From a virus, in IMG/VR virus record IMGVR_UViG_3300017963_000818, positions 1 through 21,503 of that record: a stretch of 21,503 nt of DNA; one strand, written 5' to 3'. The notes under the pieces were generated by a model. The model did not search any database, was not told the DNA's origin, and saw nothing but the letters and a program-made list of their open reading frames with translations. Shown here in pieces: positions 375-17,382 of the stretch. Both the position numbers and the translations under genes were made by a program. How positions within the stretch are numbered: position 1 is the stretch's first letter; every line of letters starts with the position of its first letter.

Positions 375-953
375 ATGAAGTTTTTGTCACATGCCCATAT
401 AAATGGAAACGGTACTAAATATAGAGATGAATATGTTCGTATTTTGGGTCGGGCGGCAAAACAAAGAAAATATGATTATATTGCTGTCGGATGTCACGGA
501 AGTTACATAGCATCTAAGAAAACAATGAATAAAGTATGGAACCTCGGTGTTTATCCAGTTAGGTTTGCTGAACTAGATGTGCGCATAGGGAAACATACTG
601 CCCATGTGTCAGCTATTAACATTCCAGATCGCCCCATTGAAGGATATATACATAGACCAAAAGACCCAGTTTCTTTAAGAGTTGTTTTACCATACCTAAG
701 GTCTGTTGGTGCTAAAGTTGTTTTAAACCATCCTAAAAGCATAGATGCACTATGGGCATATGAACCTTATCTTGATGGGTATGAAATTAAGAACGGTGCG
801 CATCGTATTGATTTTAAAAGAGAAAATCCTGGCCATTTGTTTCCAGATTTGGTACAATTTACTGGTGCTGATTACCATGTATGGAAATGCAAGGGTAATC
901 TTGATTATTATACAGAACTGCCAGATGGTTGGCTGGGAAGGCTACACAAATAA
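375..953 (+). CDS. PHP-type metal-dependent phosphoesterase
   Basis: A 192-residue protein with what looks like the full metal-ligand set of the PHP (polymerase and histidinol phosphatase) fold, in the usual order. These are HxH near the N terminus (H6, H8 in LSHAHINGNG), H41 (VGCHGSY), E66 (FAELDV), H77 (TAHVSAIN), H119 with Pro (VLNHPKS), E137 in YEIKNG, and a final DxH (D166, H168 in TGADYHVW). PHP domains bind two or three metal ions and hydrolyse phosphoesters, as in histidinol phosphatase, bacterial polymerase exonuclease domains and nucleotide phosphodiesterases. The protein is compact, with no extra domain. The substrate cannot be told from sequence. Its stop codon directly abuts the next start, in the same frame. 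A role in nucleotide or DNA-end metabolism during late infection is inference. Confidence 0.75.
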   Translation: MKFLSHAHINGNGTKYRDEYVRILGRAAKQRKYDYIAVGCHGSYIASKKTMNKVWNLGVYPVRFAELDVRIGKHTAHVSAINIPDRPIEGYIHRPKDPVSLRVVLPYLRSVGAKVVLNHPKSIDALWAYEPYLDGYEIKNGAHRIDFKRENPGHLFPDLVQFTGADYHVWKCKGNLDYYTELPDGWLGRLHK

Positions 954-2013: not shown

Positions 2014-2814
2014 ATGGGCGGATCAGGTAGTGGCAAGCCAAAAGGTGAACTTTTAGTATTAGATGGCAACGAGCTTGTTGATGGTAAGCTACAAAAAACA
2101 GATTTTTTTAATTTTCTTAAAACGGATCTTTCTGATTATAGCAATGTTACTTTTACTCCAGAACAGGCGTTATCTTTTAAAAATAGTGTAGTTCGTATGA
2201 AATACGGTGTTAGTGCTGCAATTCCAATGCTTTGTCCTGGGCAGCAGTGTTTTAATAAATTATGTACATTTCACGACGAAAAAAATTGGCCCATTGGAAG
2301 GCAGTGTCTTTACGAGGTAAGATTAATACAATCTCTTACTAAAAGTTATATGGAGGATCTTGTAATAGACCCGGAGAGTCCATCAGAGATGACATTAATT
2401 AATAAACTTATAGAGTGTGATCTTATTGATTATAGAGCTAATCTTGGTTTGTCTGGCGCGAGAGACCCAGAAGACGCCTCATTGTTGGCTAGTACCATAA
2501 TTGAGCGCGATGGTAATATCACAGAGACAGTAAGTCTCCATCCTTTGCTGGCCGCAAAAGAAACAGCCCATCGTAACAGAATGTCAATTCTAGAAGCAAT
2601 GTCTGCCACTAGAAGAGAAAAATGGAAAAAAGCTGCAGCCCTTAAAAAGTCAGAAGAAACAGATGCTTCCACCTTCTTGGCAGACCTAAAAGACAAGTTT
2701 AGCGACGAACAACTCCCGCAAAATACCTCATCACTTGATAAAATTAAAGCTGATGCAGAAAAAGTATCAGAAGACCTTTCAATTATAGACGCTGATTGGA
2801 CCAGTGATGAATAG
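2014..2814 (+). CDS. Candidate terminase small subunit-like protein with four-Cys motif
   Basis: A 266-residue protein, start preceded by a GGAG site near 2000. The central region has four cysteines (C74, C79, C84, C98) in the arrangement LCPGQQC, KLC, then WPIGRQCLYE. This is followed by a helical stretch with acidic and basic residues (SYMEDLVIDPESPSEMTL, DLIDYRANLGLSG). From memory, similar Cys-Pro layouts followed by helical domains occur in proteins annotated as terminase small subunits of large phages. The C-terminal third is helical and rich in Lys and Glu (ATRREKWKKAAALKK), ending in an acidic tail. It lies next to a terminase-type ATPase, which supports a packaging role. The four Cys could hold a zinc ion or an iron-sulfur cluster. 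The small-subunit call is tentative. Confidence 0.45.
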   Translation: MGGSGSGKPKGELLVLDGNELVDGKLQKTDFFNFLKTDLSDYSNVTFTPEQALSFKNSVVRMKYGVSAAIPMLCPGQQCFNKLCTFHDEKNWPIGRQCLYEVRLIQSLTKSYMEDLVIDPESPSEMTLINKLIECDLIDYRANLGLSGARDPEDASLLASTIIERDGNITETVSLHPLLAAKETAHRNRMSILEAMSATRREKWKKAAALKKSEETDASTFLADLKDKFSDEQLPQNTSSLDKIKADAEKVSEDLSIIDADWTSDE

Positions 2815-5800
2815 TGGCAACAATTGCAAGCCTAGTCAAATCTTCAATAAGATCTTATTCCAATAAATTCAGTGAACCTGTATCTTCTGGTCTATTCGAA
2901 GAAGATTCAGTATTTGCCAGCGCCGAAGACAAAAAAGCAAAATTAGAAAAACAATTTGAATGGTTTACTGAAGCACTAGATAAATATGGTGTATATAGTG
3001 GTACCGGCCACAAACGTATTTTAATACCTAAAAAAATAATAAACAAAGAAGAACTTGGTCAATTAGGTTTTCTTCCTGTACAAATAGCAATCCCAGAAAC
3101 TGGCCAGCTTTCTTCAGAAAGTTTTAGGCATTTAGATTTAAAACATCATCTTCATGAATTTAAAGAGAACTGGACAATACACGAAGATGAGCATCATTCT
3201 TCTACTATGCTTGTTGAAAAAGCCAAAAGACAAAAATCTGATTTTGTCGATACTGCTGGTAAATTTATTGCAGGCTTACCACATGTTATTACAGAAGGCA
3301 TACCTGGGCTTTATTACTACGCAAAAGGAAAAATTCAAGGAAAGACAGCTACAATGGAAGAACGTCTCATGGGCGAACTTCCATATGAATATTTAGATTA
3401 TATAGATGAGTATTCTACAGAAGTACAAAATACTTTAAAAGACAGATATGACTCTACAGTAAAAGTCGCAAAAACTGGATTTGACAATATATATAATACT
3501 ATAGAGGGTTTGCGCCACGGAGGGATGGCTGAACACACTAGGAAAAAGCTAACTGATTTTGGTTCTGGGTATCAAGGAGAAAATAAAGAAAAAACTAAAC
3601 AGTTTTCTTTTGTTGGTGCGGGTGCCGCAGGTATTAGTGGTTTTGGCGCATACAAAGGCATTTCAAAGTTAATATATCCATTTAGCAAGAAAGAGATGTC
3701 ACGGTATCCAGAACTTAAAAGAATGAGAAAGATTGGAACGAAACATGGACTTAGGACATACGACCCATTTGCATTTAAAGATTTTACCGGAATAAATAGG
3801 AAAAAACTTAAACCAGTTGCCAGGGGCACAATGAATCTTCTTTTCGGACCAATCAACCCAACTTCTTCTTTAGGTGATGTTAAGGGATTCAAGGGTCTTA
3901 CATACGTCCATTCTGGATCTGAAAAAATAGAAGAGATTGCAAAACATGGATTAAACGTTGGTAACTGGGATATTGGCAATGACAAGTTAGCTACCTGGGA
4001 ACTGTTAAAAAAACGTGGAATTAGCAATCTACATATAGAAACAATGCCAGCTGGTGAATTTTTTATAGGAGACGAAGCGGCAGAGGAATTTTTAGAAAGA
4101 GCTGGGGGTAGCCTAGAGAATATAGTCTTAAAGAAAAATTATGCTGCACTTGGAAAAGGTGTATGGCTTAACATGGATAAAGTTCCTATGGACATCCAAG
4201 AAGAGGTTGCCTGGAACCCAACAAAATATTTAGTTCAACCAAAAATAGATATTGCTGAAGAGTATCGTGTAGTTACAGCGGGTGGCCTACCCATACATAC
4301 AACATATAGATTCGGCAGTCCAAAAACACGAGAAACAATAAAGAAGTTTGGCTATACTGCAATGAAAGATTTGGCCGACAAAGGTGAATTTAAAGGTAAT
4401 CCTTTTGAAATTATAGAACCTGTCTTTGATAAAAAAATGAAACAAAGACTAGAGAAATTCGCCTCAAAAGCTTCCGTATATTTGCCATATGAAATCAGCG
4501 CATTGGACATTGCACTTACAAAACAAGGAGAATTAAAAATAGTTGAAGCCCAAAGATCATTTGGGAATATTTCAAATCCTCTTGTTGGAAGCAGGCTTAA
4601 ATATGCACTAACAAATAAAAAGAGCAAACTAAGTATGGCAGTAGCAGGACTAACAGCTGGTGTTGCAGCAGTACTCGGATATAATATATTTTCTGGATCT
4701 GACGATGAGCACAATACTATTGAAGGTCTTCGCCATGGAGGGATGGCTGAAAACACAAGGAAAAAATTAACTGAGTTTGGTTCTGGTTGGCGTAGACTGC
4801 TTAATACAGTAGGAAAAGTATTTAGAAAGAAAAAACCTTCTTTAAAAAATATTATCAAACAAGAGGATATTACTGTCGTTAAAACAATTGAAGAGTATGT
4901 TTCGGCTGTTGCTGGTAAAGGAGCCTCTAAAGAAGCTATCGCCACACACGCCGAGCGTTTGAGATTAGCTGGACCATTGTCTTTTGTCGAAGGCAGAACT
5001 GTATATCCTGGTAATGTAAAAATGTTTGCGTTCGATGTCCTTAAGGAAGGCGGAATTAAATATGGCAGCAAGAAATATAGTAGATATACTAAAACGCTTG
5101 AAGAAATAGGTCTCTATCATGAAATTGCAGAAGTAAAATATGGTACTCGTGTCAAGAAAGCATTCGGCTCTGATCCTGCAGAGTTAGCAAAGATGAAATT
5201 TGGTTCACACTGGTCGCCACAAGTAATCAAAGAAGAAGCTAAATACGCGAAACAGCTTGGCAAAGAAGGAATGGAAGTAGCTGCATTGCTTCGCAAGAGT
5301 GAAGGTATTGATGTTTATGGACCTGTAAGACCAGAACAAATGATGAATACCGTGAAAGAATTGCGGAGAGTACAAAGTAAAATACGTAAAGGTGGCGGTG
5401 GTGTTCTTGTTGAACAACAACGTGCTTTAAAAAAACAATATTACCAACAGAAAACAGCTATGATCTATGGTGAAGTATTTAACAATGTTAAATTAAAATC
5501 CAACAAGTCTATTAACAAAGGATTAAAGAAAGGCGATAGTTATAATTCTAAACCTGGATTACATCCTGGAGCAAAAAATAGCCTTGGTGCTAGATCAATA
5601 AAAGACATAAGCGATTTTGGTTCTAAATATGATGCCGTCAAAGGATTAGCCAAAGCTCTTGGGCAAAATACAGACGATCTTATTAAAAGCAAAATGTTTC
5701 AAGAATCTCTTAGACAAGGCAAAAGAGTCAAAAAACTTGGTGAAGGTGGTTTTGGAGAGACTTGGCAATATGAAACAGTTGTAGGTGGTCAGAAGTTTTC

Positions 5801-6683
5801 ATATGCCCGAAAAGAAATACTAGAAAGTACAAGAAAGAATTTTGGCGACATACCAATGATTATGGAACCGATTGAAAAAAGTTTCATAACAGAAGTTAAG
5901 GCATTAAAACAAACTGGTAGACATGGTATTACTCCTACAGCGTATGGTTCTGATAAAGATATATTATACATGGAGCTAATGTCTGGCAAAGATGCGTTTC
6001 AGTTAATTAATAAACAAGGTATAAGTTTACCTGATTCTGCTATTGCAGAAGCGCGTCGAGAAGCAAAAGAGATGGCTAAGAAAGGTGTGCTGCATAAAGA
6101 TATAGCGCATAGAAATATCATGTGGGACAAAGGCAAAGGAAGAGTTGCTATTATCGACCTTGGTGTTTCTGATGTTGTTAAAAATCCCAATACTGAATGG
6201 GTTAAAAATGCAATGCAATCTGTAGATAATCAGTTTGATAAACTTATTCAAGTAAGACGAGATGCCATAAGCCACTATAATAAAAATAATCCCGGCGTGG
6301 CCAAAAGTGATGCACTGAATTTTGCTAGAACAAAACCTGATTTCAACATAGCTGGAAAAACTGAAATAGATTTTAATCTTGTTGGTAAAACTGAACTGGC
6401 CGCTAGTTCTATGGCAAAAACAGATTTTGCTATTAATGCTACTGCTAGGACAGAAGTAATCGCTGATGCTTTTGCAAAAACAAAGGTAGCTGGTAATATT
6501 AAACCACAAGCTGCTGAGATGATATCTCAGAAGACAGCAGTTGGTAAACATATTAAAGATCCTCGCCGCACAGCAAGGATAAAAAAATTCCGTAAGATTA
6601 GCACAGAGGCTGTTGGTATTGGCTACCGTACTGCCCATAACGGTGGTAGAAAACACCGTAGATTTAGTGCTACTACAAAATAG
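2814..6683 (+). CDS. Large multidomain virion/ejection protein: ATP-grasp-like plus protein kinase domains
   Basis: A 1289-residue protein starting at GTG, which overlaps the previous stop by one base. Parts in order: a His-rich motif (HHLHEFKENWTIHEDEHH, residues 111-129); repeat copy 1 (228-253) followed by a Gly/Ala hydrophobic stretch (about 268-290); an ATP-grasp-like domain (about 365-600) with DKLATWELLKKRGI (D390), LKK (K440, K441), GKG (447-449), VQPKID (Q475), EEYR (R485), ALDIAL (D565) and VEAQR (E578); a Gly/Ala segment (about 604-630); repeat copy 2 (634-659); a HEIAE...SHWSP...EE region (H769, H799); a kinase-like domain (about 970-1130) with GEGGFG (976-981), ARK (K1000), E1027, HKDIAHRN (D1096, N1101) and DLG (D1115); six 10-residue repeats (1171-1230); and a basic tail. 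It probably resembles the polyvalent proteins that phages inject, acting on host targets. Domain calls are by motif only. Confidence 0.75.
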   Translation: MATIASLVKSSIRSYSNKFSEPVSSGLFEEDSVFASAEDKKAKLEKQFEWFTEALDKYGVYSGTGHKRILIPKKIINKEELGQLGFLPVQIAIPETGQLSSESFRHLDLKHHLHEFKENWTIHEDEHHSSTMLVEKAKRQKSDFVDTAGKFIAGLPHVITEGIPGLYYYAKGKIQGKTATMEERLMGELPYEYLDYIDEYSTEVQNTLKDRYDSTVKVAKTGFDNIYNTIEGLRHGGMAEHTRKKLTDFGSGYQGENKEKTKQFSFVGAGAAGISGFGAYKGISKLIYPFSKKEMSRYPELKRMRKIGTKHGLRTYDPFAFKDFTGINRKKLKPVARGTMNLLFGPINPTSSLGDVKGFKGLTYVHSGSEKIEEIAKHGLNVGNWDIGNDKLATWELLKKRGISNLHIETMPAGEFFIGDEAAEEFLERAGGSLENIVLKKNYAALGKGVWLNMDKVPMDIQEEVAWNPTKYLVQPKIDIAEEYRVVTAGGLPIHTTYRFGSPKTRETIKKFGYTAMKDLADKGEFKGNPFEIIEPVFDKKMKQRLEKFASKASVYLPYEISALDIALTKQGELKIVEAQRSFGNISNPLVGSRLKYALTNKKSKLSMAVAGLTAGVAAVLGYNIFSGSDDEHNTIEGLRHGGMAENTRKKLTEFGSGWRRLLNTVGKVFRKKKPSLKNIIKQEDITVVKTIEEYVSAVAGKGASKEAIATHAERLRLAGPLSFVEGRTVYPGNVKMFAFDVLKEGGIKYGSKKYSRYTKTLEEIGLYHEIAEVKYGTRVKKAFGSDPAELAKMKFGSHWSPQVIKEEAKYAKQLGKEGMEVAALLRKSEGIDVYGPVRPEQMMNTVKELRRVQSKIRKGGGGVLVEQQRALKKQYYQQKTAMIYGEVFNNVKLKSNKSINKGLKKGDSYNSKPGLHPGAKNSLGARSIKDISDFGSKYDAVKGLAKALGQNTDDLIKSKMFQESLRQGKRVKKLGEGGFGETWQYETVVGGQKFSYARKEILESTRKNFGDIPMIMEPIEKSFITEVKALKQTGRHGITPTAYGSDKDILYMELMSGKDAFQLINKQGISLPDSAIAEARREAKEMAKKGVLHKDIAHRNIMWDKGKGRVAIIDLGVSDVVKNPNTEWVKNAMQSVDNQFDKLIQVRRDAISHYNKNNPGVAKSDALNFARTKPDFNIAGKTEIDFNLVGKTELAASSMAKTDFAINATARTEVIADAFAKTKVAGNIKPQAAEMISQKTAVGKHIKDPRRTARIKKFRKISTEAVGIGYRTAHNGGRKHRRFSATTK
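3495..3572 (+). repeat. Copy 1 of a 26-residue duplicated motif (GLRHGGMAE...FGSGY)
   Basis: Encodes residues 228-253 of the large multidomain protein. It matches copy 2 at 4713-4790 at 23 of 26 amino acids; the differences are H/N, D/E and the last Y/W. The DNA copies differ mostly at third codon positions, so the duplication is old and held by selection on protein. Each copy lies beside a Gly/Ala-rich hydrophobic stretch, and the pair brackets the ATP-grasp-like domain. I recall similar FGSG motifs in other phage virion proteins; the function is unknown to me. Confidence 0.9.
4713..4790 (+). repeat. Copy 2 of the 26-residue duplicated motif (GLRHGGMAE...FGSGW)
   Basis: Encodes residues 634-659 of the same protein and is the partner of the copy at 3495-3572. 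It follows a hydrophobic Gly/Ala segment (AGLTAGVAAVLGYNIF) and an acidic linker (GSDDEH), and leads into a Lys-rich stretch (FRKKKPS). It may be a docking or packaging tag used twice. The spacing of about 400 residues between copies holds the ATP-grasp-like domain. Confidence 0.9.
6324..6503 (+). repeat. Six exact-length 30-base units encoding 10-residue repeats ([AG][KR]T)
   Basis: Six tandem units of exactly 30 bases start at 6324, 6354, 6384, 6414, 6444 and 6474. Each encodes [AG][KR]T, an acidic residue or Lys, then a partly hydrophobic stretch (for example GKTEIDFNLV and AKTDFAINAT). The Thr codons sit at 6330, 6360, 6390, 6420, 6450 and 6480. The units are well diverged in DNA, so this is a protein-level repeat, residues 1171-1230, placed just after the kinase-like domain. 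It may form a beta-solenoid or fibrous segment, or present regularly spaced Thr residues. Confidence 0.9.
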
Positions 6684-6731: not shown

Positions 6732-7250
6732 ATGGGTTTTATGAGAAGAATGATGATCGGTGGTACTGCTGGAGGTGCCTATAAAGCCTGGGAAGGCGGG
6801 GATATGAGAGATATCCTTGGTGGTGCCACAGCTGGTGCTCTTGCTGGTGGAGTAGGCGGTTATTACGCTGGAAAACTAGCAAGACGTGGTGCTTCTGCTG
6901 CTCGCAGTGCTACTGTTTCTGCTGGTCGCGGTATTCGAAATACTGCACGTACTGCTAACCAAAGAACTAGCATTGCTCATTTGGCACGTAAAGCAACCGG
7001 AGCCGGAATTAGAATGGCTAGCGCTGGATCTCGTATGGGAGCAAGAAGATATGCTGCTGGTGGTGTTGGTGGAGGTTCTATCTTTAGAGCAAGTAATGCT
7101 GTCGGTGCTGGACTGGTAGCAACTAATAGATTTATTGGAAATAACGTAGCAGCTGTTAATAAATATGGTGGATATGCAATGGGTGCAATTGGCGCTGGTT
7201 CTGCTGCATATATAGGTGGCTCTATGCTACGAAGCAACAGGAATAAATAA
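6732..7250 (+). CDS. Gly/Ala-rich basic virion protein, putative
   Basis: A 172-residue protein made mostly of Gly, Ala, Arg and Ser. The N terminus has a glycine-zipper-like run (LGGATAGALAGGVGGYYAG, about residues 30-48), the middle is strongly basic (KLARRGASAARSA, RGIRNTARTANQR), and a second Gly/Ala segment near the C terminus (GGYAMGAIGAGSAAYIGG, about 148-165) could span a membrane. The ribosome site AAGGGGTG is well placed. It sits between the multidomain protein and another glycine-zipper protein, so a role as an internal or ejected protein that crosses or binds membranes is plausible. Low-complexity composition makes homology calls unsafe. Confidence 0.6.
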   Translation: MGFMRRMMIGGTAGGAYKAWEGGDMRDILGGATAGALAGGVGGYYAGKLARRGASAARSATVSAGRGIRNTARTANQRTSIAHLARKATGAGIRMASAGSRMGARRYAAGGVGGGSIFRASNAVGAGLVATNRFIGNNVAAVNKYGGYAMGAIGAGSAAYIGGSMLRSNRNK

Positions 7251-7252
7251 TT

Positions 7253-8047
7253 ATGCAATGGTTTAAAGAAAATTTTGGCTCAAGTCCTTCTGGTTTAGTT
7301 GATCCTAGATATAAGGCACAAGATTTTGGAAAGCGACATTTTTCGTCTAGTTACGCTAGAGGCGGGCTCGCTGCAACTATATTTGCTCCTACTACTGGAG
7401 AGGCATTAAAGTCTCCTTGGCGCAGAACACATAAACCTGGAAGCACACAACATATTGCCAACTTAAGAAAAATGCAAATGCAATATCCTGGCAATAAGAA
7501 AATAGCCAAAGCACTTGTATCAGCAGAACAAGGTGCCGCAAAAGCCGGAATGCTTGGAAAACTTGGTAAAGTTGCAGGCCCAGCAATGAGTGCCGCATTT
7601 GTAGTGGCCCCTGCCTTTACAACACCTGGTGGCCCTTACGAGAAAGGCAAAGCAATGATTTCTGGCGCTGCTGGGCTTGTTGGATTTGAAATAGGTAGTA
7701 AGGCAGGACTTGGAGCTGGTGCTGCAGCTGGTGCTGCTCTTGGTGCTTTCTTAGGCCCAGTAGGGGCAGTAGCAGGTGGACTTATTGGTGGAGCAGTTGG
7801 GTTTTTCGGTGGTGGTCTTGCTGGTAGTGCTGCACTTAGTGGTGCTACAGATGCAACATTTGCTACTGCTGATCAGGCAGTACAAAACGAACGAAATAGA
7901 AGACAACTTGGTTGGGTTGGAGATCAAACTGCATTTATGACGGAAGGTGCACATACAATGAGACAACAATCTTTACAAGCAATGAATAGAGGCATGATGA
8001 GTGCTAGATCTATGCTTGGTAAAGAAGGTATGATGTTGCACCAATAG
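7253..8047 (+). CDS. Glycine-zipper membrane-active virion protein, putative
   Basis: A 264-residue protein. The N-terminal half is basic and mixed (FGKRHFSSSYARGG, TQHIANLRKMQMQYPGNKK). Residues about 138-198 form a long Gly/Ala zipper with hydrophobic faces (LGAGAAAGAALGAFLGPVGA, AGGLIGGAVGFFGGGLAGSA), typical of proteins that make or line membrane channels. The C terminus is Met/Gln-rich and helical (TMRQQSLQAMNRGMMSARSM), a pattern I associate with structural proteins of other phages. The start follows an AGGAA site at 7239-7243. The position directly before the terminase and after the multidomain protein supports an ejection role; this is inference. Confidence 0.6.
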   Translation: MQWFKENFGSSPSGLVDPRYKAQDFGKRHFSSSYARGGLAATIFAPTTGEALKSPWRRTHKPGSTQHIANLRKMQMQYPGNKKIAKALVSAEQGAAKAGMLGKLGKVAGPAMSAAFVVAPAFTTPGGPYEKGKAMISGAAGLVGFEIGSKAGLGAGAAAGAALGAFLGPVGAVAGGLIGGAVGFFGGGLAGSAALSGATDATFATADQAVQNERNRRQLGWVGDQTAFMTEGAHTMRQQSLQAMNRGMMSARSMLGKEGMMLHQ

Positions 8048-8054
8048 GTGATTT

Positions 8055-9989
8055 ATGGTTGATGAATTATCAGATCTTAGAAAATTAGAACTACCCTTTA
8101 ATGTAGATGAGGTAATCCCTCAGTGTCACGAGTGTGTTCGCACGCAATTAAAAAAATATGAAAAGTTTGTTTTTGATGGTAAGGCTGTTGGCGAAAAGTT
8201 TATGGTACTTTGTAAAGGCATTAAAAAGAGCTTAGTTTCTCCTATGGAGGAAGCTACTATGACAGACGAGCAGCTTGACATGTTAAAGGCTACCCGTGAC
8301 AAAGTAGAATTCGCTAAACAATTCATTAGGTTACCTGGTGATATACCTTGGATTGCACGCTGGTACCAAGAGAATGTTTTACGTTGCACTTCACGTAGGA
8401 AAGTTTTGCGTATTGGTCGAAGGACAGGAAAAACTGACAGCGTGTGTGTTGAAATTCTATATAAGCTTTTTACTAATAAAGATAAAAAGATTTTTGTTAC
8501 TGGTCCTCAAAAGATTCACGTAGAAGAAATATTTATTAGACTTAGGTCTTTTATTGCTGCACATCCAATGTTAAGAGATTCTGTTGTAAGAGACGTAAAA
8601 GCTCCTTATTATGAAATAAAGATTCGCAATGGTTCTCGTGTTCGTGGTGTGCCCGCAGGAGCGAAAGGCAAGAAGGAAGGTCTCGCTGGTCGAGGTCAGG
8701 ACGCTGATGATATTTATGTGGAGGAAATGGATTATGTAGATGGTACCGCTCTTCGAGGTGGTATTTTTCCTATTCTACATACAACACCAAATACTAGTCT
8801 TTGTGGGTTTTCTACTCCTACTGGATTTAAAACACCATATTATACTCTTTGTGAAGAAAGTCCTGGATATAAAGAGTTTCATTTTACTTACAAGGTGCTT
8901 CCTCATTGGAAACAAGTAGAGGCAGAGAAGCCACAGTTTACAGAAGAAGATTGGAAGCATGAATATTTAGCCGAATGGGGAACATCTGAAGGTGGTGTTT
9001 ATAAACCTTCTTATATTGATCGTGCGCTTGTTAAATATGAATATGACTCAATAAAAAGAAATGCTTCTTGGAAATATACTATTGGCACTGATTGGAATGA
9101 AAAATATGGTACTGAAATTATAGTACTTGGGTTTAATCCATTTACAAACACATATCAAGTTGTTGAATCACAACATATTGAAAAGTCAGAGTTTACACAG
9201 CTTTCTGGTATTTCTAAACTTTTAGAGATGAACAAAAAGTGGATGCCCAATTATATTTATATCGATGCTGGCAACGGAAGCACTAATTATGAGTTACTTA
9301 GAAAAACAGCATGGACACACACACATAAAAACGGTGATAGAAATACTGCTAACTTATTAAGAATATTAAAGAAATATGATGCTGGTGCTGCCCTTGAAAT
9401 CAAAGATCCTATCACACACGAAAAAACCAAAAAACCAGCTAAACCTTTTATGGTTAACTGCTCTGTTAGGTTGTTTGAACAAAACCTAATTAGAATATCA
9501 TCATATGACAACAAATTAGAAAAACAACTTAGAAGTTATATTGTTGATCGTATTTCTCCAAATGGTAATCCTGTTTATGCCACTGAAGATCCAAAAGTTA
9601 TGGATCATAGGCTTGACGCTCTTAACTTGGCAATTGTTGCTTTTCAGTTGGAATTTAGTGACTTACATGCTACTGTTGTCAATACACAGGTTGGTGCAGT
9701 TCTTGATCCGCGTACAAAGAGAAACCAAAAAGCCTCTACTGCGGAGGAAAGAAAAGAAAGATTATCCAGACCAGAAGAAAGAAGACTTGATGGTGGAGTA
9801 GAACAAACAGATTTAGAAAAACATATACTTGCAAATCAAGCCAGAAGAGTGGATAATCATTTAGGAATGAATACAAACCGTTTAGGTTGGGACACTGACC
9901 AAGAAGAAGAGAGAATGAAAGAATATTTACAGCGTAGAAAAAGCAGAAGAAAAATACACAGTAATAGACCTACACGTTCTAATATCTAG
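8055..9989 (+). CDS. Terminase large subunit (packaging ATPase and nuclease)
   Basis: The 644-residue motor that pumps phage DNA into the procapsid and cuts it. ATPase domain: an adenine-binding-type Gln (Q105 in RWYQEN), Walker A GRRTGKT (121-127), RGQDADD leading to Walker B VEEMD (E223, catalytic E224), and a coupling-type segment GFSTPTG. Nuclease domain, RNase H fold: D346 (TIGTDWNEKYG), D404 (IYIDAGNG) and D521 (DHRLDALNLA), the usual three acidic ligands. The length is within the normal range for phage large terminases, with an N-terminal extension of about 90 residues and a very basic C-terminal tail (RRKSRRK). The AGGTGA ribosome site overlaps the previous stop and lies only three bases from the ATG. 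A shorter paralogue of its ATPase domain lies at 1427-2011. Confidence 0.93.
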   Translation: MVDELSDLRKLELPFNVDEVIPQCHECVRTQLKKYEKFVFDGKAVGEKFMVLCKGIKKSLVSPMEEATMTDEQLDMLKATRDKVEFAKQFIRLPGDIPWIARWYQENVLRCTSRRKVLRIGRRTGKTDSVCVEILYKLFTNKDKKIFVTGPQKIHVEEIFIRLRSFIAAHPMLRDSVVRDVKAPYYEIKIRNGSRVRGVPAGAKGKKEGLAGRGQDADDIYVEEMDYVDGTALRGGIFPILHTTPNTSLCGFSTPTGFKTPYYTLCEESPGYKEFHFTYKVLPHWKQVEAEKPQFTEEDWKHEYLAEWGTSEGGVYKPSYIDRALVKYEYDSIKRNASWKYTIGTDWNEKYGTEIIVLGFNPFTNTYQVVESQHIEKSEFTQLSGISKLLEMNKKWMPNYIYIDAGNGSTNYELLRKTAWTHTHKNGDRNTANLLRILKKYDAGAALEIKDPITHEKTKKPAKPFMVNCSVRLFEQNLIRISSYDNKLEKQLRSYIVDRISPNGNPVYATEDPKVMDHRLDALNLAIVAFQLEFSDLHATVVNTQVGAVLDPRTKRNQKASTAEERKERLSRPEERRLDGGVEQTDLEKHILANQARRVDNHLGMNTNRLGWDTDQEEERMKEYLQRRKSRRKIHSNRPTRSNI

Positions 9990-9998
9990 GAGGATAAC

Positions 9999-10460
9999 AT
10001 GAGCTTGGGAATATATTTTAGAGATTCCGATGGAAATATGTCATTAGCTACAGCTGATGGAGACACTACAAATCCCATAACAACAACGCACGATGGTAAA
10101 GATGGAGACGAAAAGACTGTCACGTTGTATTTGCGTAATGATGATTTAACCAAATGGTATTCAAATATTGTTATTACTCCTGTTGATTTGGTAGATGCTA
10201 ATCCTTATGGTGATGTTGGATACACAGAAACTGGATGGGGCGTAAAGATAAATAAAGGTGGAGATCAACCTACAGATGCTGAATGGGGAGATGTTGACTG
10301 GGGAGATCATATTCATATGGATAACATCGGATCTAGTGTTGCTGGTGATAATGCTACTTATTATCCGTTTTGGTATTTAATTTCTTGCCCGCCGAATAGC
10401 CCAGCACAAAACAAAAGCGATATAGTTCTTAAGGTTGAGTTTACAGAGAACGCGGTATAA
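9999..10460 (+). CDS. Hypothetical structural protein, beta-rich
   Basis: A 153-residue acidic protein with a strong AGGAGGA ribosome site at 9988-9994. Alternating short strands (KTVTLYLRNDD, WYSNIVITPVD, SDIVLKVEFTENA) and Gly/Asp turns suggest a beta-sandwich, as in virion decoration or tail-associated domains. The Trp-rich centre (GWGVKINKGGD, AEWGDVDWGDHIH) is distinctive. It comes straight after the terminase and starts a run of four unassigned genes before the portal. I do not recognise a named family. A virion role follows only from context and fold type. Confidence 0.55.
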   Translation: MSLGIYFRDSDGNMSLATADGDTTNPITTTHDGKDGDEKTVTLYLRNDDLTKWYSNIVITPVDLVDANPYGDVGYTETGWGVKINKGGDQPTDAEWGDVDWGDHIHMDNIGSSVAGDNATYYPFWYLISCPPNSPAQNKSDIVLKVEFTENAV

Positions 10461-10464
10461 TCTA

Positions 10465-10878
10465 ATGGATATTAAAAAATTATTGAATACAGATGATCAA
10501 AATCTATTAAGTGAAAATGCTGGTGTTCAGTGGGTTCCAGAGAATCCACGTGAAGTATTATTACCTTATATGTCTAATGTTCCCAACGAAGAAGAAGAGG
10601 GTTTGGACACTAGGAGAAGAAAAGCAAAAGAAGTTGTTGATGGTTATACTAAAATAATTGAAGACTCAAAAGTACTTGAGGGTGAAATAGAAGAAAGATG
10701 TAAAAATGTAAAAGTACCTCTTAATACAGGGCAACATTTAAGCGTTATAGAAGCAATAGGTAGAGTATTTGGCATACGGTCCGAAGAAGTTACTTTTGAT
10801 ATGTATAAAATATGTGTTAAAGAATTAGGTAAAATTGCAAATAACACAGGAGAACCTAATAATGATGGTAATAGATGA
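10465..10878 (+). CDS. Hypothetical protein, charged helical
   Basis: A 137-residue protein from the ATG at 10465, five bases after the previous stop. An upstream in-frame ATG at 10435 would lie inside the previous gene, so it is less likely. Neither start has a good ribosome site; GAGAA at 10446-10450 is the best, so translation may be coupled. The protein is acidic in the middle (NEEEEGLDTRRRK) and mostly helical (YTKIIEDSKVLEGEIEERCK), ending in a flexible Asn/Gly tail. It may be a small virion or assembly protein. No family recognised. Confidence 0.5.
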   Translation: MDIKKLLNTDDQNLLSENAGVQWVPENPREVLLPYMSNVPNEEEEGLDTRRRKAKEVVDGYTKIIEDSKVLEGEIEERCKNVKVPLNTGQHLSVIEAIGRVFGIRSEEVTFDMYKICVKELGKIANNTGEPNNDGNR

Positions 10879-11245
10879 AATTAACCAAGAGGCGTATGAT
10901 ACCTATCAGGTAGAAATAGGCTACTATAAATTGTTTCCTTTGTTGCTTGGTGATTTTGTCACACGTAAAGACGCAAAGCAAATGATGTTGCCTAGTAACT
11001 TACCAGTACAGACCTCAGTAACTGTTAATCCAGGTCAGGCTGTCCAGGTTGCCGTTCCTGCTGGAACCGGGTCAACCACCTCTCCTGCTGCTGGGAATGG
11101 ACAGGGTACCGTACAGCCTACATATAATGGAAGTACACCTCATGCTGAATCTCAAGTTTTAAAAGCTGAGATAGAAGCTAAAAAACGTGCTGGTGGAGTA
11201 GCAGTAGATAGCCTTACAGAACCAGTTAAGAAAGCTACCGAATAA
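10862..11245 (+). CDS. Hypothetical protein with Pro/Gly/Thr-rich linker
   Basis: A 127-residue protein. The start is set at the first of two tandem ATGs (10862, 10865), because AGGAGA at 10848-10853 lies eight bases upstream. A longer frame from 10835 has no such site. It overlaps the previous gene by 17 bases. The N-terminal third looks folded (VEIGYYKLFPLLLGDFVTRK). The middle is a flexible linker rich in Pro, Gly, Thr and Gln, and the C terminus is a short charged helix (QVLKAEIEAKKRAG). Its stop overlaps the ATG of the next gene (TAATG at 11243-11247). Function unknown; a connector-type protein is one possibility. Confidence 0.5.
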   Translation: MMVIDEINQEAYDTYQVEIGYYKLFPLLLGDFVTRKDAKQMMLPSNLPVQTSVTVNPGQAVQVAVPAGTGSTTSPAAGNGQGTVQPTYNGSTPHAESQVLKAEIEAKKRAGGVAVDSLTEPVKKATE

Positions 11246-13230
11246 TGGGTTTTACTGATGATAAAAATGTTGTGCGCACCAACGAGAAGAAAGTTATTGC
11301 TTCTTCTGATGGTCAAACAGTAAAAGTTAAACTTAGAGTTAACAAAAAGAATCCGTTGGCACAACAAGATTATGCTTTAATAGTTAGGGCTTTTGAAGTA
11401 GAAGCTGCCAATTGGGCAGAAGAAGATTACGCCCTTGCTTATCACTATAAAGATGTTTACTCCACTAGGAATTTTTCTACACGAGTAAGAGAGCAGATGG
11501 GGTATTATCCAGGTATGCATCAGGCTTCTGGAGTTAAGAAAGAAGACCCTGCATACACAACAGCCAATAATAAAGCAAATGATAGATTGAACTTCTGGAA
11601 TAACTCTATGGATAATCCAGACGCTTTTATGAATGGATTACGATCTAGAGAACAAGATTTTGACTATAGAAAGATTTTTGGGTCTGACACATCTGCAAAA
11701 ACAAAAGGTGAGCAAGTAGGAAAGCTTCTTACAGAATGTATACCTTGTTTTGATAGATTATTGGATCTTGATGGGTTGCTTCCAGATGGTGATCTTTTAG
11801 AGGTTCATCTTTTAAATATTAAAATGCGCACAGATATCCTAGATCAGATACGTGATCTTTTTAAAGATCCTGGAATGTATTTAGATATTTGTGAACTATT
11901 GAATTTGTTGTCTGGATTGTGTCCACAAGATCTTCTTGCAATGTTAGCGCTATTAACAAATTATCTAGCAAAATTAAACTTAGATGTTAAATTTAATGTT
12001 GATTTCATTATTAATCTTGTCGGCGCAATATTAAGCCCATTTTTAGATGCTCTAGCACAATGGTTAGATAAACTAGTACAAATGCTTATTGCTCCAATGC
12101 TTTGTGTTGTAGATCATATTAATGAAGTTATTATACTAGCACAAAACGCAAAGATCCCATTCAGCCAGGCATCTGTTTCTGCAGAAGCAGATATTGGTGT
12201 TGCACTTCCAACACATAAAAACTTTTCTAGTGATGTTGGCGCTGGCGTAGAACCCACAGAAAGACAATGGGCCAATGGTGAGATGGAGCGATTCAATACT
12301 CCTGATGGTCAAAAATATAATCCAACAATACCAGAGTGGCCAGAAGAAGAAACAGATCTTGCTGTTGATGAAATGAAAGAATCTGTGAAACCATCTATAT
12401 CTACAGCAGAAAGAGAACAAAGAGATCAGAAGTGGGCCGATCTTAAACGAAAAGATAGAAACAAAAGAAACAAAGTTCCACCGCCTTTAAAGCGTGGTAA
12501 TCCACGTGACGGCACAAGGTGGAGTAAAGATGATATTCCACAATCAGAAAAATGGAGCAAAGAATTTTCTATAGGCAATGAGAACAATCCTCCAGAAAAA
12601 CAAAGCACTGTAAAAGAAGCTAAAAGATATTTTGATCCAGAACCACTTGTTAATTCTATAGTTCAGATGCGCAACATTTCTCAGGGTGCTATTAGGTATG
12701 TTCAAGATTGGTTTGATTATGCTATTCAAATGATCTATGACCTTTTAGGTACTGACTTTGGGTGGATGAGCAAAAAATCAGATAGTTCTGTTATTAGGTC
12801 TCGCATTATTCAGTTGATTTTAGTAATAAAATCTATCCTTAAAGCAATTTCTAAAAATGGCCTAAAGTGTGGCACTAATAGTAATTTAGATGTGCAACAA
12901 ATGAAATTTATCCTAGAAGACACGATGAACAAACAAAGCGCTACACAATTTGAAGTACTAGATAATGGTGATATAAGAGTTATTCCACCCAACGGTAATA
13001 AGAAAATAGATACAAAACAAACAGTTGGCTCAAAAGAAAACAGTAACAGTGGAATTAATAGTGGGATTGGAACTATTGATAACAGCGCAAAAACAAATGA
13101 AGTTAAGCAAAAAACTGTCGAATCAGGTATTATTATTAAGAATTGTTTGCAAGATATGACAGCTGAAGACTTGTCAAGTGCCAGAGAATTTATAGCTGAA
13201 TATGAGAGGAGAACTGGCGGTAATGGATAA
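11245..13230 (+). CDS. Large hypothetical virion protein with Leu-rich helical core
   Basis: A 661-residue protein of unknown family. Residues 1-160 are charged. From about 160 to 300 there is a Leu-rich helical region containing C165, C168 and C216 (CELLNLLSGLCPQDLL), with a hydrophobic stretch (FIINLVGAILSPFLDALAQ) that could be buried in an oligomer or membrane-associated. Residues about 345-470 are Pro/Glu/Lys-rich and look disordered (PPPLKRGNPRDGTRW). Then comes a second helical part (YVQDWFDYAIQMIYDLLG, IIQLILVIKSILKAISK) and an Asn/Ser/Thr tail. It sits directly upstream of the portal gene, overlapping it slightly. Size and position suggest a virion component near the neck or inside the head; this is inference. 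Confidence 0.6.
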   Translation: MGFTDDKNVVRTNEKKVIASSDGQTVKVKLRVNKKNPLAQQDYALIVRAFEVEAANWAEEDYALAYHYKDVYSTRNFSTRVREQMGYYPGMHQASGVKKEDPAYTTANNKANDRLNFWNNSMDNPDAFMNGLRSREQDFDYRKIFGSDTSAKTKGEQVGKLLTECIPCFDRLLDLDGLLPDGDLLEVHLLNIKMRTDILDQIRDLFKDPGMYLDICELLNLLSGLCPQDLLAMLALLTNYLAKLNLDVKFNVDFIINLVGAILSPFLDALAQWLDKLVQMLIAPMLCVVDHINEVIILAQNAKIPFSQASVSAEADIGVALPTHKNFSSDVGAGVEPTERQWANGEMERFNTPDGQKYNPTIPEWPEEETDLAVDEMKESVKPSISTAEREQRDQKWADLKRKDRNKRNKVPPPLKRGNPRDGTRWSKDDIPQSEKWSKEFSIGNENNPPEKQSTVKEAKRYFDPEPLVNSIVQMRNISQGAIRYVQDWFDYAIQMIYDLLGTDFGWMSKKSDSSVIRSRIIQLILVIKSILKAISKNGLKCGTNSNLDVQQMKFILEDTMNKQSATQFEVLDNGDIRVIPPNGNKKIDTKQTVGSKENSNSGINSGIGTIDNSAKTNEVKQKTVESGIIIKNCLQDMTAEDLSSAREFIAEYERRTGGNG

Positions 13231-15394
13231 CAACAAACCTGAACAAAACCAGGACGCTCCCAAGAGTGAAAATAATGGTTTTAAGGTTCCAGAGAAAAGA
13301 TCTATTATTCCAGTGGCTTTGCCGCCACCAACAAAAGTATACACCTCAAATATTGGAAGAGGAAGAGCACCTACTTTAAGATGGGAAAATTCAGAATGGG
13401 ACTTAGTTGAAACTGGTCGTATTTTAGATACTGAATCTTATTATAAACGTGCACTCAAAGTAAAAAAGAACCTATTCCTTAAAGAGGGTTATTCTTTTTC
13501 TAGTTCTGATATTAATAGAATTAGATATATTAAACAAAGATTTCAACAAATGGAGCACGCAACTGGTGTTCCATTTCCTATGTTAATTTCCGATACTGTA
13601 GCTTCTTTGATAAGAACTAACAACGCTTTTTGGGTAAAAGTACGTAAACAATCTGCTTCTGGTGGAAAAGTTCGTGTGCTTCCGTCTGGCAAGAAACTTA
13701 ATCCAATTGCTGGATATTTCTTAATGCCGTCTGAAACTGTAAGGTTTAAAAGAGATGAGTATGGCAAAATACATAAGTACCAACAAGAAGTATATGGAAA
13801 AGTAACAAAAGAGTTCAAGCCAGAAGATGTTGTTCATTTTCACTTTGAAAAACGTCCAGGTTATTCTGTTGGAACTCCAGATGTTGTCCCTGTTAAAGAT
13901 GATATTCGTGCATTGCGCAGAATAGAAGAAAATGTTGAGCTTCTTGTATACCAACACCTTTTCCCTTTGTTTCATTATCAGGTTGGTACATCTGATGCAC
14001 CTGCTGCTATGTTTTCAGATGGCCAGAGTGAAATTGATATAGTAAAAGCTGCTGTTCAGGCTATGCCATCTGATGGCTGTTGGGTGACTCCAGAAAGACA
14101 CGCTATTACTCCGCTACAGGGTTCATCTCCACCTATTGCTGTTGATAAAGTAATTGAGCATTTTAAACAAAGAATTTTTACTGGTCTTGGTGTTTCTTCT
14201 GTAGACATGGGAGAGGGTGGAACAGCTAATCGTTCTACTGCTCAAACAATGTCAAGAAACCTTATTGACGACACAAAGGCTAATCAAAAAGAATTTGGCT
14301 CTCAGTTTTACTCTCATGTATTACAAGAGTTATTACTTGAGTCTTCGTTTCCAGAATCTACTTTGTTTGACAAAGAATTTAAAGTTACCCTTAAATTTAA
14401 AGAGATAGATTTTGAGGCTAGACAAGCTAAAGAAAATCATTATGTAGATTTATTCCTTAAAAACGCAATTACGCATTCTGAACTTAGACAAGAACTTGGA
14501 AGAGAACCTTTTCAAGGAGATGGTTGGCCAACTAGCAAAGACAAAAGCACTATGTTTACAGCAGGTGATGGCGACTGGGCAAATACCAACTATGGCCTAA
14601 TAGAAAGAGACAAAGCTCTTATTCAAGCTGTTGATGAGCCACATACAGAAGTTGCAAAAGCAGAATCTGCTTCTCGTGCAAAACAAAATACATCTTCTGG
14701 TGGTAATTCTATAAGCAATAAAAGCCAACCGGCAAACCAACACGGGAAAAGACCAACTGCCAAAGTTAACAAAGATGCACTGGATTTTGTCTATAAACAA
14801 CAATCTCCACTTGGATCTATATATTCAAGTATTAAAACAGATATAGTAGATACTGTACGTACTAATGGGGTGTCTTTGGATAACCTTATTCTTTCTATAA
14901 ATATGTCGTTCTTAGAAGCAAGAGACAGGCTTTTTAGTTTATGTAAACAGGCATACAGGGCTGGCTTAAGAGAGACTGGTCATATTGTTTATGAGGTAAA
15001 CATAAGTAAGATTGATGGCAGAATTCAAGATCATGTTGAAAAATACACATACAAACTTAGAGACCATTTAATTAAAAATATAAAATCACATACTACAAAA
15101 AACAAGAATTTAAAAGCCGAAGATGCAGTATTTGTTGGTCTGGTTTTTGATGCATTAGAACACAGAACTCATATGATTGACAATAGTGAAATAATGCGCG
15201 CATATAACTATGGACTATGTAGTGGATATAGATTAAATAACTTCGAAGAGATTAGTTCTATTAGAAATAGTGACCATCCATGTAATATTTGTGATGGCGG
15301 CGCTTTGAAATACAAATCTACTGATGCTATAATTTACGAAGAGTTGCCACCATTGCATCCACATTGTACTTGTACTATGCAGGTAACTAAATAA
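13223..15394 (+). CDS. Portal protein fused to a MuF-like C-terminal domain
   Basis: A 723-residue protein from the ATG at 13223; AGAGGAGA at 13205-13212 fits this start better than the in-frame ATG at 13202, which lies at the edge of that site. The first part (to about 490) is portal-like: a long N-terminal arm, a central region with GTPDVVPVKDDIRALRRIEE, TGLGVSSVDMGEGG and a typical C-terminal turn (ITHSELRQELGREPFQGDGW). The portal forms the dodecameric DNA gate at one capsid vertex. After a Ser/Asn/Gln linker the C terminus is a helical MuF-like domain with a zinc-type set, CNIC (C687, C690) and HPHCTC (H712 to C717), as in the Mu F/SPP1 gp7 minor head proteins. Usually portal and MuF proteins are separate genes; here they are one chain. 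Confidence 0.82.
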   Translation: MDNNKPEQNQDAPKSENNGFKVPEKRSIIPVALPPPTKVYTSNIGRGRAPTLRWENSEWDLVETGRILDTESYYKRALKVKKNLFLKEGYSFSSSDINRIRYIKQRFQQMEHATGVPFPMLISDTVASLIRTNNAFWVKVRKQSASGGKVRVLPSGKKLNPIAGYFLMPSETVRFKRDEYGKIHKYQQEVYGKVTKEFKPEDVVHFHFEKRPGYSVGTPDVVPVKDDIRALRRIEENVELLVYQHLFPLFHYQVGTSDAPAAMFSDGQSEIDIVKAAVQAMPSDGCWVTPERHAITPLQGSSPPIAVDKVIEHFKQRIFTGLGVSSVDMGEGGTANRSTAQTMSRNLIDDTKANQKEFGSQFYSHVLQELLLESSFPESTLFDKEFKVTLKFKEIDFEARQAKENHYVDLFLKNAITHSELRQELGREPFQGDGWPTSKDKSTMFTAGDGDWANTNYGLIERDKALIQAVDEPHTEVAKAESASRAKQNTSSGGNSISNKSQPANQHGKRPTAKVNKDALDFVYKQQSPLGSIYSSIKTDIVDTVRTNGVSLDNLILSINMSFLEARDRLFSLCKQAYRAGLRETGHIVYEVNISKIDGRIQDHVEKYTYKLRDHLIKNIKSHTTKNKNLKAEDAVFVGLVFDALEHRTHMIDNSEIMRAYNYGLCSGYRLNNFEEISSIRNSDHPCNICDGGALKYKSTDAIIYEELPPLHPHCTCTMQVTK

Positions 15395-15414: not shown

Positions 15415-17382
15415 ATGCCTAAAGATCTTAGTCTCTTTAGAGATTATTTTAAGGTTGTAAAGCCTACAGATAAAGAAATCACAGAATGGAAAGACTCTTT
15501 AATTGAAACTTCTAGCGATGATCTTTCTTCGCAAGGTCGGGTTCGGCAAGGATTAGAAGTTACTTTTGAAGCTACACACTCTGCTTTGTTTAATGACAAT
15601 TTGCGTTTTTATCTTCCGTCTCGAATGGAAGATGGCGCTAAAACTTTTATACAACGCAATAAACCAGCAAAAATATTAAAACATCACGACTCAAGTGCTG
15701 ATCCTGTTGGTGTTATCATAGGTGCAGAATATATATCTACCATTCCTGAGGGTTTAGCTAACAACAAAGATGTTCTTACTTTGCTTGATAGTTCTAATTC
15801 TATCAATGACCAAATCAAAGCATCTAGAAAACTATTAAAATCTGGTATACCTTTTGAGGATAACTGGAGAGGACTCGGTTATATTAAACTTAAAGGTATT
15901 ATATATGACAAAGAAACAATAGAACAGATCCAAGACGGAAGATTTGACGCAGTGTCTACTTCTTTTAGGTCTCCTGGCGAAGCCTATTGTTCTGAATGTC
16001 GTCAAAATCTTGCGAAAGAAGGATTTTGTGATCACTCTCCTGGCGGCAAATATACTGACGGAGAAGAAGATGACAATGGAGTAATTTGTGGCATCATTCC
16101 AGGTGTCCATAATTATGACGAAGTAAGTCTTGTTGTTTTTGATGGCGATCCACTCACTCAGATTGCTATTGGACACCAAGACTCAAACAAAGAATTTAAA
16201 ATTTCAATGGACAATTGGAATAAAACCTCTGAAGAACGACCAAGTAATATTGCTTATTCTTTTAGAGACTTTAAGGAGGAAGAAAATATGGCAGATCCTA
16301 AAGTAGAAAAACCTGCCAATCAGGAAATTGATTCAGATCTTATATGTGATGAGATGCAAGTTGAGCTTAAAGCAATGCTTGATGAAGAGCTTATTACCTC
16401 GGAAGAGTGGGAAGCGGCAGATGCAAAATTGAGTACAGAACAGCGTAAAAAACTGTCTAAATCAACTTTTTGTGGTCCTGATCGTTCTTTTCCGGTTCCT
16501 GATTGTGCACATGTTACTGCGGCACGTCGTTTAATTGGTCGTTACGAAGGACCTGGTAATAAAGACGAAATTCTTGCTTGTGTTGATCGCAAGGCTAAAG
16601 CTCTTGGTTGCGACAGTAAAAAAGAAGATAAAGCTGTTGTAGAAGACCCACAAGAAGATAAGTTTGAATTACCTACATGTGAACTGGTTGGTAAATTGAA
16701 TGACGACGAAACTAAAGAGTTGTTTAACATGGCAGAAGCAGAAATGATTTCAAGAAACTTGAAATTAGATAGACCTTGTGGTAAATGCGCTGCACATGAA
16801 GACGAAGCTAAAAAGAACAAACAAGCTTTAGATGACTCTATTAAACAAAATGAAGAACTTAATAATCAACTAAATGTATTGCGTGAAGAACTTAGATTTC
16901 AAATTGCTGATTACATGGCACAAGTTGACAAATATGTAGAACTTGGAGCATCTTTGACTGCCGCCCAAAAAGATCATTTGGCGTTAGTTGGAGTACTTAA
17001 TGGTAAGTTTGAAAGTGTTGAAATTGCTAATGATTCTTTGAAAGATGCTAATATTGAAGAACAGAAACCTGTTATTATGGCAGATTTTAAAATCGAAGAT
17101 GTTATGTCTAAAATGAATGATGGCATGCCAAACACTCCAGACCCGAGCGAAACAGTAGATGACCCTACCGATAATAATGATATCGATAATAAGCAACTTG
17201 CTGATGGTCTGTCTCAATCTGCTATCTCGGCTATTGAAAATATTCGTGATTTTATCAATGACGATAAAATACTAAACGCAAAAAGACTTTATGGTAAAAT
17301 GGTAGGGCTAAAAGTTATTGATCCAAAAATCGTACCATTTGATAGTCTTTCAGCAAAAAAAGAAGATAAAACTGCTGAATAG
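15415..17382 (+). CDS. Prohead protease fused to scaffold, with Cys-rich insertions
   Basis: A 655-residue protein with a strong AGGAGGA ribosome site at 15398-15404. The N-terminal part (about 40-265) resembles prohead proteases: an early strand VTFEATHS, a candidate catalytic His (H90/H91 in KILKHHD, followed by DPVGVI), and candidate Ser S181 or S183 (AVSTSFR). A small Cys/His cluster follows (CSEC at 192-195, C205, H207), which may bind zinc. After about residue 290 comes a scaffold-like half. It contains a motif with C353, C364, H366, C389 and C399 (CGPDRSFPVPDCAHV ... RKAKALGC), similar to the DUF6582-type pattern, CGKC at 455-458, and a helical coiled-coil region. Processing probably frees the capsid for maturation. 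Exact catalytic residues are uncertain. Confidence 0.72.
   Translation: MPKDLSLFRDYFKVVKPTDKEITEWKDSLIETSSDDLSSQGRVRQGLEVTFEATHSALFNDNLRFYLPSRMEDGAKTFIQRNKPAKILKHHDSSADPVGVIIGAEYISTIPEGLANNKDVLTLLDSSNSINDQIKASRKLLKSGIPFEDNWRGLGYIKLKGIIYDKETIEQIQDGRFDAVSTSFRSPGEAYCSECRQNLAKEGFCDHSPGGKYTDGEEDDNGVICGIIPGVHNYDEVSLVVFDGDPLTQIAIGHQDSNKEFKISMDNWNKTSEERPSNIAYSFRDFKEEENMADPKVEKPANQEIDSDLICDEMQVELKAMLDEELITSEEWEAADAKLSTEQRKKLSKSTFCGPDRSFPVPDCAHVTAARRLIGRYEGPGNKDEILACVDRKAKALGCDSKKEDKAVVEDPQEDKFELPTCELVGKLNDDETKELFNMAEAEMISRNLKLDRPCGKCAAHEDEAKKNKQALDDSIKQNEELNNQLNVLREELRFQIADYMAQVDKYVELGASLTAAQKDHLALVGVLNGKFESVEIANDSLKDANIEEQKPVIMADFKIEDVMSKMNDGMPNTPDPSETVDDPTDNNDIDNKQLADGLSQSAISAIENIRDFINDDKILNAKRLYGKMVGLKVIDPKIVPFDSLSAKKEDKTAE
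16273..16290 (+). promoter_or_regulatory. Internal ribosome site and ATG for nested scaffold
   Basis: Inside the protease gene lies AAGGAGG (16273-16279) followed, eight bases later, by an ATG (16288-16290) in the same reading frame. The spacing and strength match the best ribosome sites in this window. The codons here encode Lys-Glu-Glu, so the site costs little in protein terms. It sits exactly at the junction between protease and scaffold halves. Confidence 0.7.
16288..17382 (+). CDS. Nested scaffold protein (internal in-frame start), putative
   Basis: Translation from the internal ATG would give a 364-residue product starting MADPKVEKP and identical to the C-terminal part of the protease-scaffold chain. 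It holds the Cys-rich motif (C353, C364, C389, C399 of the full protein), the CGKC pair, a coiled-coil-like stretch (NKQALDDSIKQNEELNNQLN) and an acidic C terminus. Scaffold proteins guide capsid assembly and are later removed. The arrangement is like phage lambda C and Nu3, where a scaffold is made from a start inside the protease gene. It would give more scaffold than protease, as assembly needs. Expression is inferred from the ribosome site only. Confidence 0.6.
   Translation: MADPKVEKPANQEIDSDLICDEMQVELKAMLDEELITSEEWEAADAKLSTEQRKKLSKSTFCGPDRSFPVPDCAHVTAARRLIGRYEGPGNKDEILACVDRKAKALGCDSKKEDKAVVEDPQEDKFELPTCELVGKLNDDETKELFNMAEAEMISRNLKLDRPCGKCAAHEDEAKKNKQALDDSIKQNEELNNQLNVLREELRFQIADYMAQVDKYVELGASLTAAQKDHLALVGVLNGKFESVEIANDSLKDANIEEQKPVIMADFKIEDVMSKMNDGMPNTPDPSETVDDPTDNNDIDNKQLADGLSQSAISAIENIRDFINDDKILNAKRLYGKMVGLKVIDPKIVPFDSLSAKKEDKTAE

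Follow-up and report, generated by a model that had tools for sequence, protein, structure and literature searches.

A cassette-swapping locus beside the phage terminase gene encodes connector-linked multi-enzyme proteins

The window analysed here is a stretch of 21,503 nucleotides from a 21.5-kb IMG/VR phage record (i.e. IMGVR_UViG_3300017963_000818), and contains at 2814-6683 a gene that joins several predicted enzyme modules in one polypeptide. The open reading frame (ORF) is uninterrupted from a GTG start at 2814, which shares one base with the end of an upstream gene for a 266-residue protein, to a stop at 6683. The sequence over the gene is identical to a stretch of a 72-kb contig. A predicted protein kinase, a modelled ATP-grasp domain, a putative metalloenzyme and a conserved module of unassigned fold are arranged around three copies of a 30-residue connector (Table 1), and the protein was found to be one of 41 connector proteins with differing enzyme cassettes. 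A preliminary description of this DNA had listed ATP-grasp-like and kinase landmarks in the protein, and each residue named was found at its position; the three connectors, a third likely enzyme module, the hydrophobic segment at residues 608-626 and the conserved C-terminal tail are additional features.

Table 1. Positions of the multi-enzyme gene, its parts and its neighbours in the window (labels beginning with L denote individual loci or contigs)
Feature	Position	Strand	Evidence
Whole multi-enzyme protein, 1289 residues	2814..6683	+	Intact ORF, connector profile
Module 1 (residues 41-200), His-rich, conserved, fold unassigned	2934..3413	+	Inner cassette in L022, L023, L028, L033
Connector copy 1 (residues 227-255)	3492..3578	+	Profile E 2e-17
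ATP-grasp cassette (residues 268-630)	3615..4703	+	Homologues L024, L027, L068, L069; fold match; invariant residues
Hydrophobic Gly/Ala-rich helix (residues 608-626), possible membrane segment	4635..4691	+	Hydropathy
Connector copy 2 (residues 631-660)	4704..4793	+	Profile E 4e-17
Module 3 (residues 661-907), divergent HExxE...H...E, putative metalloenzyme	4794..5534	+	Profile E 3.8e-6
Connector copy 3, degenerate (residues 908-940)	5535..5633	+	Profile E 2.5e-7
Protein kinase module (residues 941-1130), short C-lobe	5634..6203	+	PF00069, alignment of 19 domains
C-terminal tail (residues 1251-1286), basic, AVGIGYRTAHNGGRKH	6564..6671	+	Tail common to ten family proteins
Upstream gene, 266 residues, fixed neighbour	2014..2814	+	Synteny comparison
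Two glycine-zipper proteins (172 and 264 residues), downstream	6732..8047	+	Synteny comparison
Terminase large subunit, fixed neighbour	8055..9989	+	phrog_2, E 3.8e-31

Enzyme modules of the protein

The kinase module was recognised by a PF00069 match at residues 971-1127 (E 9.7e-11; 42 bits against a gathering cut-off of 31.7). Six residues (i.e. K1000, E1027, D1096, N1101, D1115 and G1117) are invariant in an alignment of 19/19 family kinase domains, and a profile made from these domains matched 2278 PDB sequences at E<=0.01. As judged from sequence comparison, residues 941-1130 are a real protein kinase module with intact catalytic residues, in line with the kinase domain proposed earlier. 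The PF00069 match covers the profile only up to position 153 of 263 and the PDB matches end there too; because this end lies just past the DLG sequence (i.e. the DxG motif), the kinase is short and lacks the usual C-lobe. The motif set had been called complete, a term that holds for the catalytic motifs, all of which are present, but not for the full C-lobe after DxG. Short bacterial and archaeal kinases of the RIO, Bud32 and ABC1 types resemble this module in their short length and weak profile matches; the window kinase falls far under the NCBIfam family cut-offs, and the general PF00069 model was the best overall profile.

No sequence-level ATP-grasp match was obtained for the window protein in Pfam or among PDB sequences. 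Homologous modules are present in L024, L027 and L068/L069. An AlphaFold2 model was generated from an alignment of four homologues, and was of moderate confidence, with a predicted local distance difference test (pLDDT) score of ~75 for the core and a mean of 58, the latter because the first 70 residues have very low confidence. Foldseek searches with this model returned 458 PDB matches at E<=1e-3. Among the best 50 of these 458, all were ATP-grasp enzymes, with RimK, D-cycloserine synthetase, D-Ala-D-Ala ligase and LysX/ArgX as the top matches. Residues K440, Q475, K477, E483, R485, D539, D565 and E578-x-Q580 are invariant in the four homologues, D390-K391 forms the linker element (K391 being retained in 3/3 covering sequences) and the terminal motif, E578-A-Q580, has Q in place of the N of the ExN type. 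On the strength of the model, the cassette at residues 268-630 is considered a real ATP-grasp module, and the fold search thus bears out the ATP-grasp-like domain of the preliminary description. Most of its landmarks were retained, with K440, Q475, R485, D565 and E578 invariant and D390 in the linker element, but K441 is not invariant. The proposed GKG at 447-449 lies in a segment of the window protein (AALGKGV, 444-450) that conforms to the canonical ssxGbGl loop; in the relatives, this motif is not retained.

The ExR motif places the cassette with the peptide-bond-forming ATP-grasp ligases, following published definitions (PMC4431377). RimK, D-Ala-D-Ala ligase and LysX/ArgX have in common with it the fold, linker lysine K391, K440, E483-x-R485, D565 and E578, whereas the window protein differs from these enzymes in having E-x-Q rather than E-x-N, in lacking a Pfam match and in being part of a phage multi-enzyme chain. 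The R2K clade (CDC123-like) is defined by the missing linker lysine and by a loop that lacks the ssxGbGl motif but has a second conserved Lys or Arg (Burroughs et al. 2015, PMC4431377). The ExR motif is common to R2K and the window cassette, a Lys or Arg occurs eight residues past K440 in three of the four homologues (K, K and R; E in L027), and L068 gave a below-threshold match to R2K_2 (0.0023). Membership of R2K was rejected for the window module, as both K391 and the ssxGbGl-type loop are present.

Of the two remaining modules, module 1 gave a structure model with a pLDDT of 77 and no PDB match in a fold search. Module 3 is a divergent member of an HExxE...H...E cassette type and a putative metalloenzyme: it was matched by a profile built without this module (reversed control, 5.8), and its residues H769, E770, E773, H799 and E808 align with the cassette. 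The hydropathy of residues 608-626 is the maximum for the protein (1.67 across 19 residues). Ten family proteins with differing last modules end in the same tail as the window protein. The stretch between kinase and tail (window 6264-6480) contains imperfect short repeats (…KTDF/KTEIDF/KTEL…) and is possibly an extended linker.

Connectors and exchange of cassettes

The connector has the consensus (D)x(Y/H)NTIEGLxHxGxAxxxRxxxT(D/E)FGSG(W/Y)x(G/P). Scanning of viral contigs yielded 35 and then 44 loci, from which 41 non-redundant proteins were obtained after removal of duplicates. These proteins have 1-6 connectors each and lengths, where complete, of 455-2418 residues. The FGS residues are close to invariant among the connector copies (F 105/105, G 104/105, S 105/105), and the R is present in 93/105. 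At identical residues, codon agreement between copies within one genome was 0.47 as compared to 0.44 expected from codon usage. As codon identity is close to this expectation, the connector is conserved as protein and not as DNA, and a function as a DNA recombination site is unsupported. Likeness of connectors was slightly higher within genomes (0.55) than between genomes (0.51), a difference reached by 0/1000 label shuffles and compatible with a degree of duplication or with co-variation between connector and partner.

No true match to the connector was found in named phages; the only two matches, in Lactobacillus Satyr and Enterobacter EC151, were rejected as chance, being on the opposite strand to an annotated gene. 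A search of bacterial and archaeal genomes with alignment A3 produced no confirmed match. Hydrophobic helices are enriched directly upstream of connectors (18/106 sequence windows as compared to 1.9% of background windows). A Gly-Gly-basic-His tail ends 18/41 chains as compared to 1% of internal windows, the pattern having been chosen after viewing the tails.

Division of the 41 proteins gave 141 segments, and 102/141 have a relative in another segment of the set. Module 1 stands first in the window protein and is an internal cassette in four relatives (Table 1), whilst the ATP-grasp cassette is flanked by two connectors in the window protein, L027 and L068. The kinase profile matches 24/41 family proteins; kinase homology starts 1-3 residues past the connector in 14 domains, which marks a shared junction and not an independent test of the border, as the profile was seeded directly after the connector. 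With Pfam, staphylococcal nuclease was detected in 13 family proteins and an RNase_H_2/DEDD exonuclease in several; L022 gave a weak DnaJ match, and L049 has an intein. A GNAT-like cassette gave a weak profile match (E 0.016), and HExxH cassettes were suggested by residue patterns and weak profiles. One cassette with a PD-(D/E)xK-looking residue pattern was not confirmed by a PDB profile search. The closest syntenic relative, L007 (terminase ~70% identical), encodes a 455-residue protein with one connector, a kinase, the same tail and no ATP-grasp, indicating that the ATP-grasp cassette is optional. The joining of ATP-grasp and kinase had previously been viewed as a one-off fusion; instead, it is one among many architectures of a cassette-swapping locus. 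In the 2410-residue family member of L049 (5823-13055), an intein-like segment at ~1288-1738 has a LAGLIDADG match.

A fixed position beside terminase

In the window, the multi-enzyme gene is followed by two small glycine-rich proteins and then by terminase, portal and major capsid genes, in agreement with the late, packaging-side context described earlier. The 266-residue gene is upstream in 30/30 loci that have both a 5' flank and terminase, at <100 bp in 29 and at 571 bp in L073. Glycine-zipper genes and terminase lie downstream on the same strand in 35/41 loci, with terminase 1.2-3.6 kb away; terminase was not seen within the available sequence at the other six (i.e. L036, L046, L049, L051, L053 and L089). 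The carriers are a clade of large tailed phages, distant kin of Bacillus phage KLEB27-3 and Acinetobacter phage ME3. With a terminase profile, distant relatives were found in Alicyclobacillus and in metagenome-assembled genomes (MAGs), in which the connector is missing.

Several other genes drew attention. In Acinetobacter phage ME3, the 529-residue ME3_11 (L016:5895-7484) occupies a similar place, begins with a DxE exonuclease-like region and has a hydrophobic helix at its C-terminus, and is a possible cultured analogue; the family N-terminal exonuclease profile gave no match to it and Pfam matches were sub-threshold, so that ME3_11 is a lead only. A separate 194-residue gene at window 1427-2011 matches only the ATPase half of the large terminase (phrog_7579, 5e-9) and was not seen between the equivalent neighbours in L007. 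The L007 terminase (8084-11272) has an in-frame insert of ~418 residues (222-639) that weakly matches inteins and LAGLIDADG; no such insert is present in the terminase of the window. The C-terminal end (605-727) of the portal protein (window 13202-15394) matches the head-morphogenesis family phrog_4728, for which reason it is a possible portal-MuF-type fusion. A 192-residue gene at window 375-953 gave a weak CehA/McbA metallohydrolase match (0.0034), and an open-ended ORF at 20996-21502 resembles, by eye, an Ig-like/adhesin-type surface protein and had no PHROG match.

Delivery with phage DNA and competing explanations

Polyvalent proteins of phages and conjugative elements combine several enzymes per polypeptide in variable architectures and occur in late-gene neighbourhoods (Iyer et al. 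2017, PMC5512222). The window protein likewise has at least two enzymatic domains (kinase and ATP-grasp), the connector family has shuffled architectures and a position near the late terminase-portal genes, and both groups include C-lobe-less kinases and GNAT-like and HExxH-type modules. Polyvalent-protein kinases lack the C-lobe and have an insert between the conserved His and Asp (PMC5512222); by sequence, the window kinase appears to share the loss of the C-terminal subdomain but has no such insert (i.e. H1094-K-D1096). The family differs further in its repeated 30-residue connector, its fixed terminase-side locus and its ATP-grasp and staphylococcal-nuclease cargo. The class of multi-enzyme phage proteins is already known. 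Term searches of open-access literature, a scope that excludes subscription journals and preprints, found no mention of the connector, the fixed cassette-swapping locus or the ATP-grasp cargo.

By analogy with polyvalent proteins (PMC5512222), the packing in the virion and injection proposed earlier are plausible, and the gene product is probably an early effector chain of polyvalent type, carried in the capsid and delivered with the DNA. Its chassis consists of the hydrophobic Gly/Ala-rich helix and of a connector that recurs from module to module, often with a basic Gly/His tail at the C-terminus. Enzymes of various kinds have entered this chassis and been reshuffled (in the window protein, the module of unassigned fold, the ATP-grasp ligase, the putative metalloenzyme and the short kinase). 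Encoded among packaging genes, the chain would be loaded into the capsid and enter the cell with DNA, with the connector serving as a docking, threading or delivery element. After entry, the kinase might at once phosphorylate host or defence proteins, and the ATP-grasp module might ligate amino acids or peptides to such proteins. Consistent with this reading are the intact catalytic residues predicted for two ATP-using enzymes, the same locus in 35/41 cases, cassettes that change position among relatives, a connector conserved as protein and confined to this gene in the 72- and 140-kb contigs, cargo kinds that match the polyvalent list (i.e. kinase, nucleases, GNAT-like, HExxH peptidase-like) and the combination of late-gene placement with conflict enzymes seen in the phage-type polyvalent proteins of PMC5512222. 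Three observations weigh against it. A search for a virion proteome of any phage carrying this gene found none; a membrane segment would also suit a protein confined to the producing cell; and cultured relatives have small glycine-zipper proteins at this place instead. In the more distant Bacillus KLEB27-3, Alicyclobacillus contig L092 and MAG L094, small proteins, mostly of glycine-zipper type, and then terminase come after the 266-residue homologue, at a locus with no connector or enzymes. One small glycine-zipper-type protein was likely turned into the enzyme chassis.

The constant position of the gene immediately next to terminase and glycine-zipper genes, together with hydrophobic helices adjoining connectors, would also suit a late, membrane-associated assembly or packaging factor that stays in the producing cell, where its enzymes modify proteins of the phage head or motor, or protect DNA during replication. 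This explanation is considered unlikely, as the cargo varies and is even missing at the same place in relatives, making it ill-suited to a universally needed step, and nuclease cargo is hard to square with packaging. Connectors might alternatively be cleavage sites of a polyprotein, from which individual virion or cell proteins would be released by, for instance, the phage prohead protease: they lie at module borders, and a gene at 15415-17382 is syntenic with an annotated prohead protease. In the only two large contigs checked (72 and 140 kb), however, the connector is restricted to the multi-enzyme gene, unlike a general prohead-protease site, and conservation extends over ~30 residues flanking any single bond on both sides, as would be more typical of an element for recognition or structure; cleavage of this kind is rather improbable. 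A toxin-like or superinfection-exclusion chain, directed against competing phages or bacteria and not itself a virion component, would account for the nuclease, kinase and peptidase-like cargo and for cassette turnover. Against it, the same structural genes are neighbours in the great majority of loci, and no accompanying immunity gene came to light, although no search was aimed at small ones; this explanation is judged very improbable.

Within the favoured reading of a capsid-delivered effector chain, a more specific and tentative proposal, somewhat doubtful as it stands, is that connector and C-terminal tail form a dedicated loading code that binds a conserved partner, such that the capsid would take up the enzymes between connectors and these would be threaded into the host. 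Candidate partners would be the 266-residue protein, a glycine-zipper protein or the portal, and the locus would then act as a plug-in effector-delivery system of tailed phages.

In polymorphic toxin systems, swappable enzymatic modules are carried on a conserved chassis. The connector family has the same general design, and differs in that most cassettes vary, several occur per chain, the locus is among phage structural genes and no immunity partner was recognised. PMC5512222 also draws a contrast with such systems. One giant protein made from interchangeable enzyme blocks looks like a refillable toolkit for bacterial takeover. These findings suggest a phage counterpart of polymorphic effector systems, in which one locus swaps ligases, kinases, nucleases and further enzymes behind a common connector, and the ATP-grasp cassette would bring ligase chemistry to the known phage protein-modifying enzymes. 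A role of the connector as a loading or threading signal, if true, would help to account for the entry of large folded enzymes into cells together with phage DNA, and would provide a sequence handle by which uncultivated phages could be searched for enzymes of early takeover and anti-defence.
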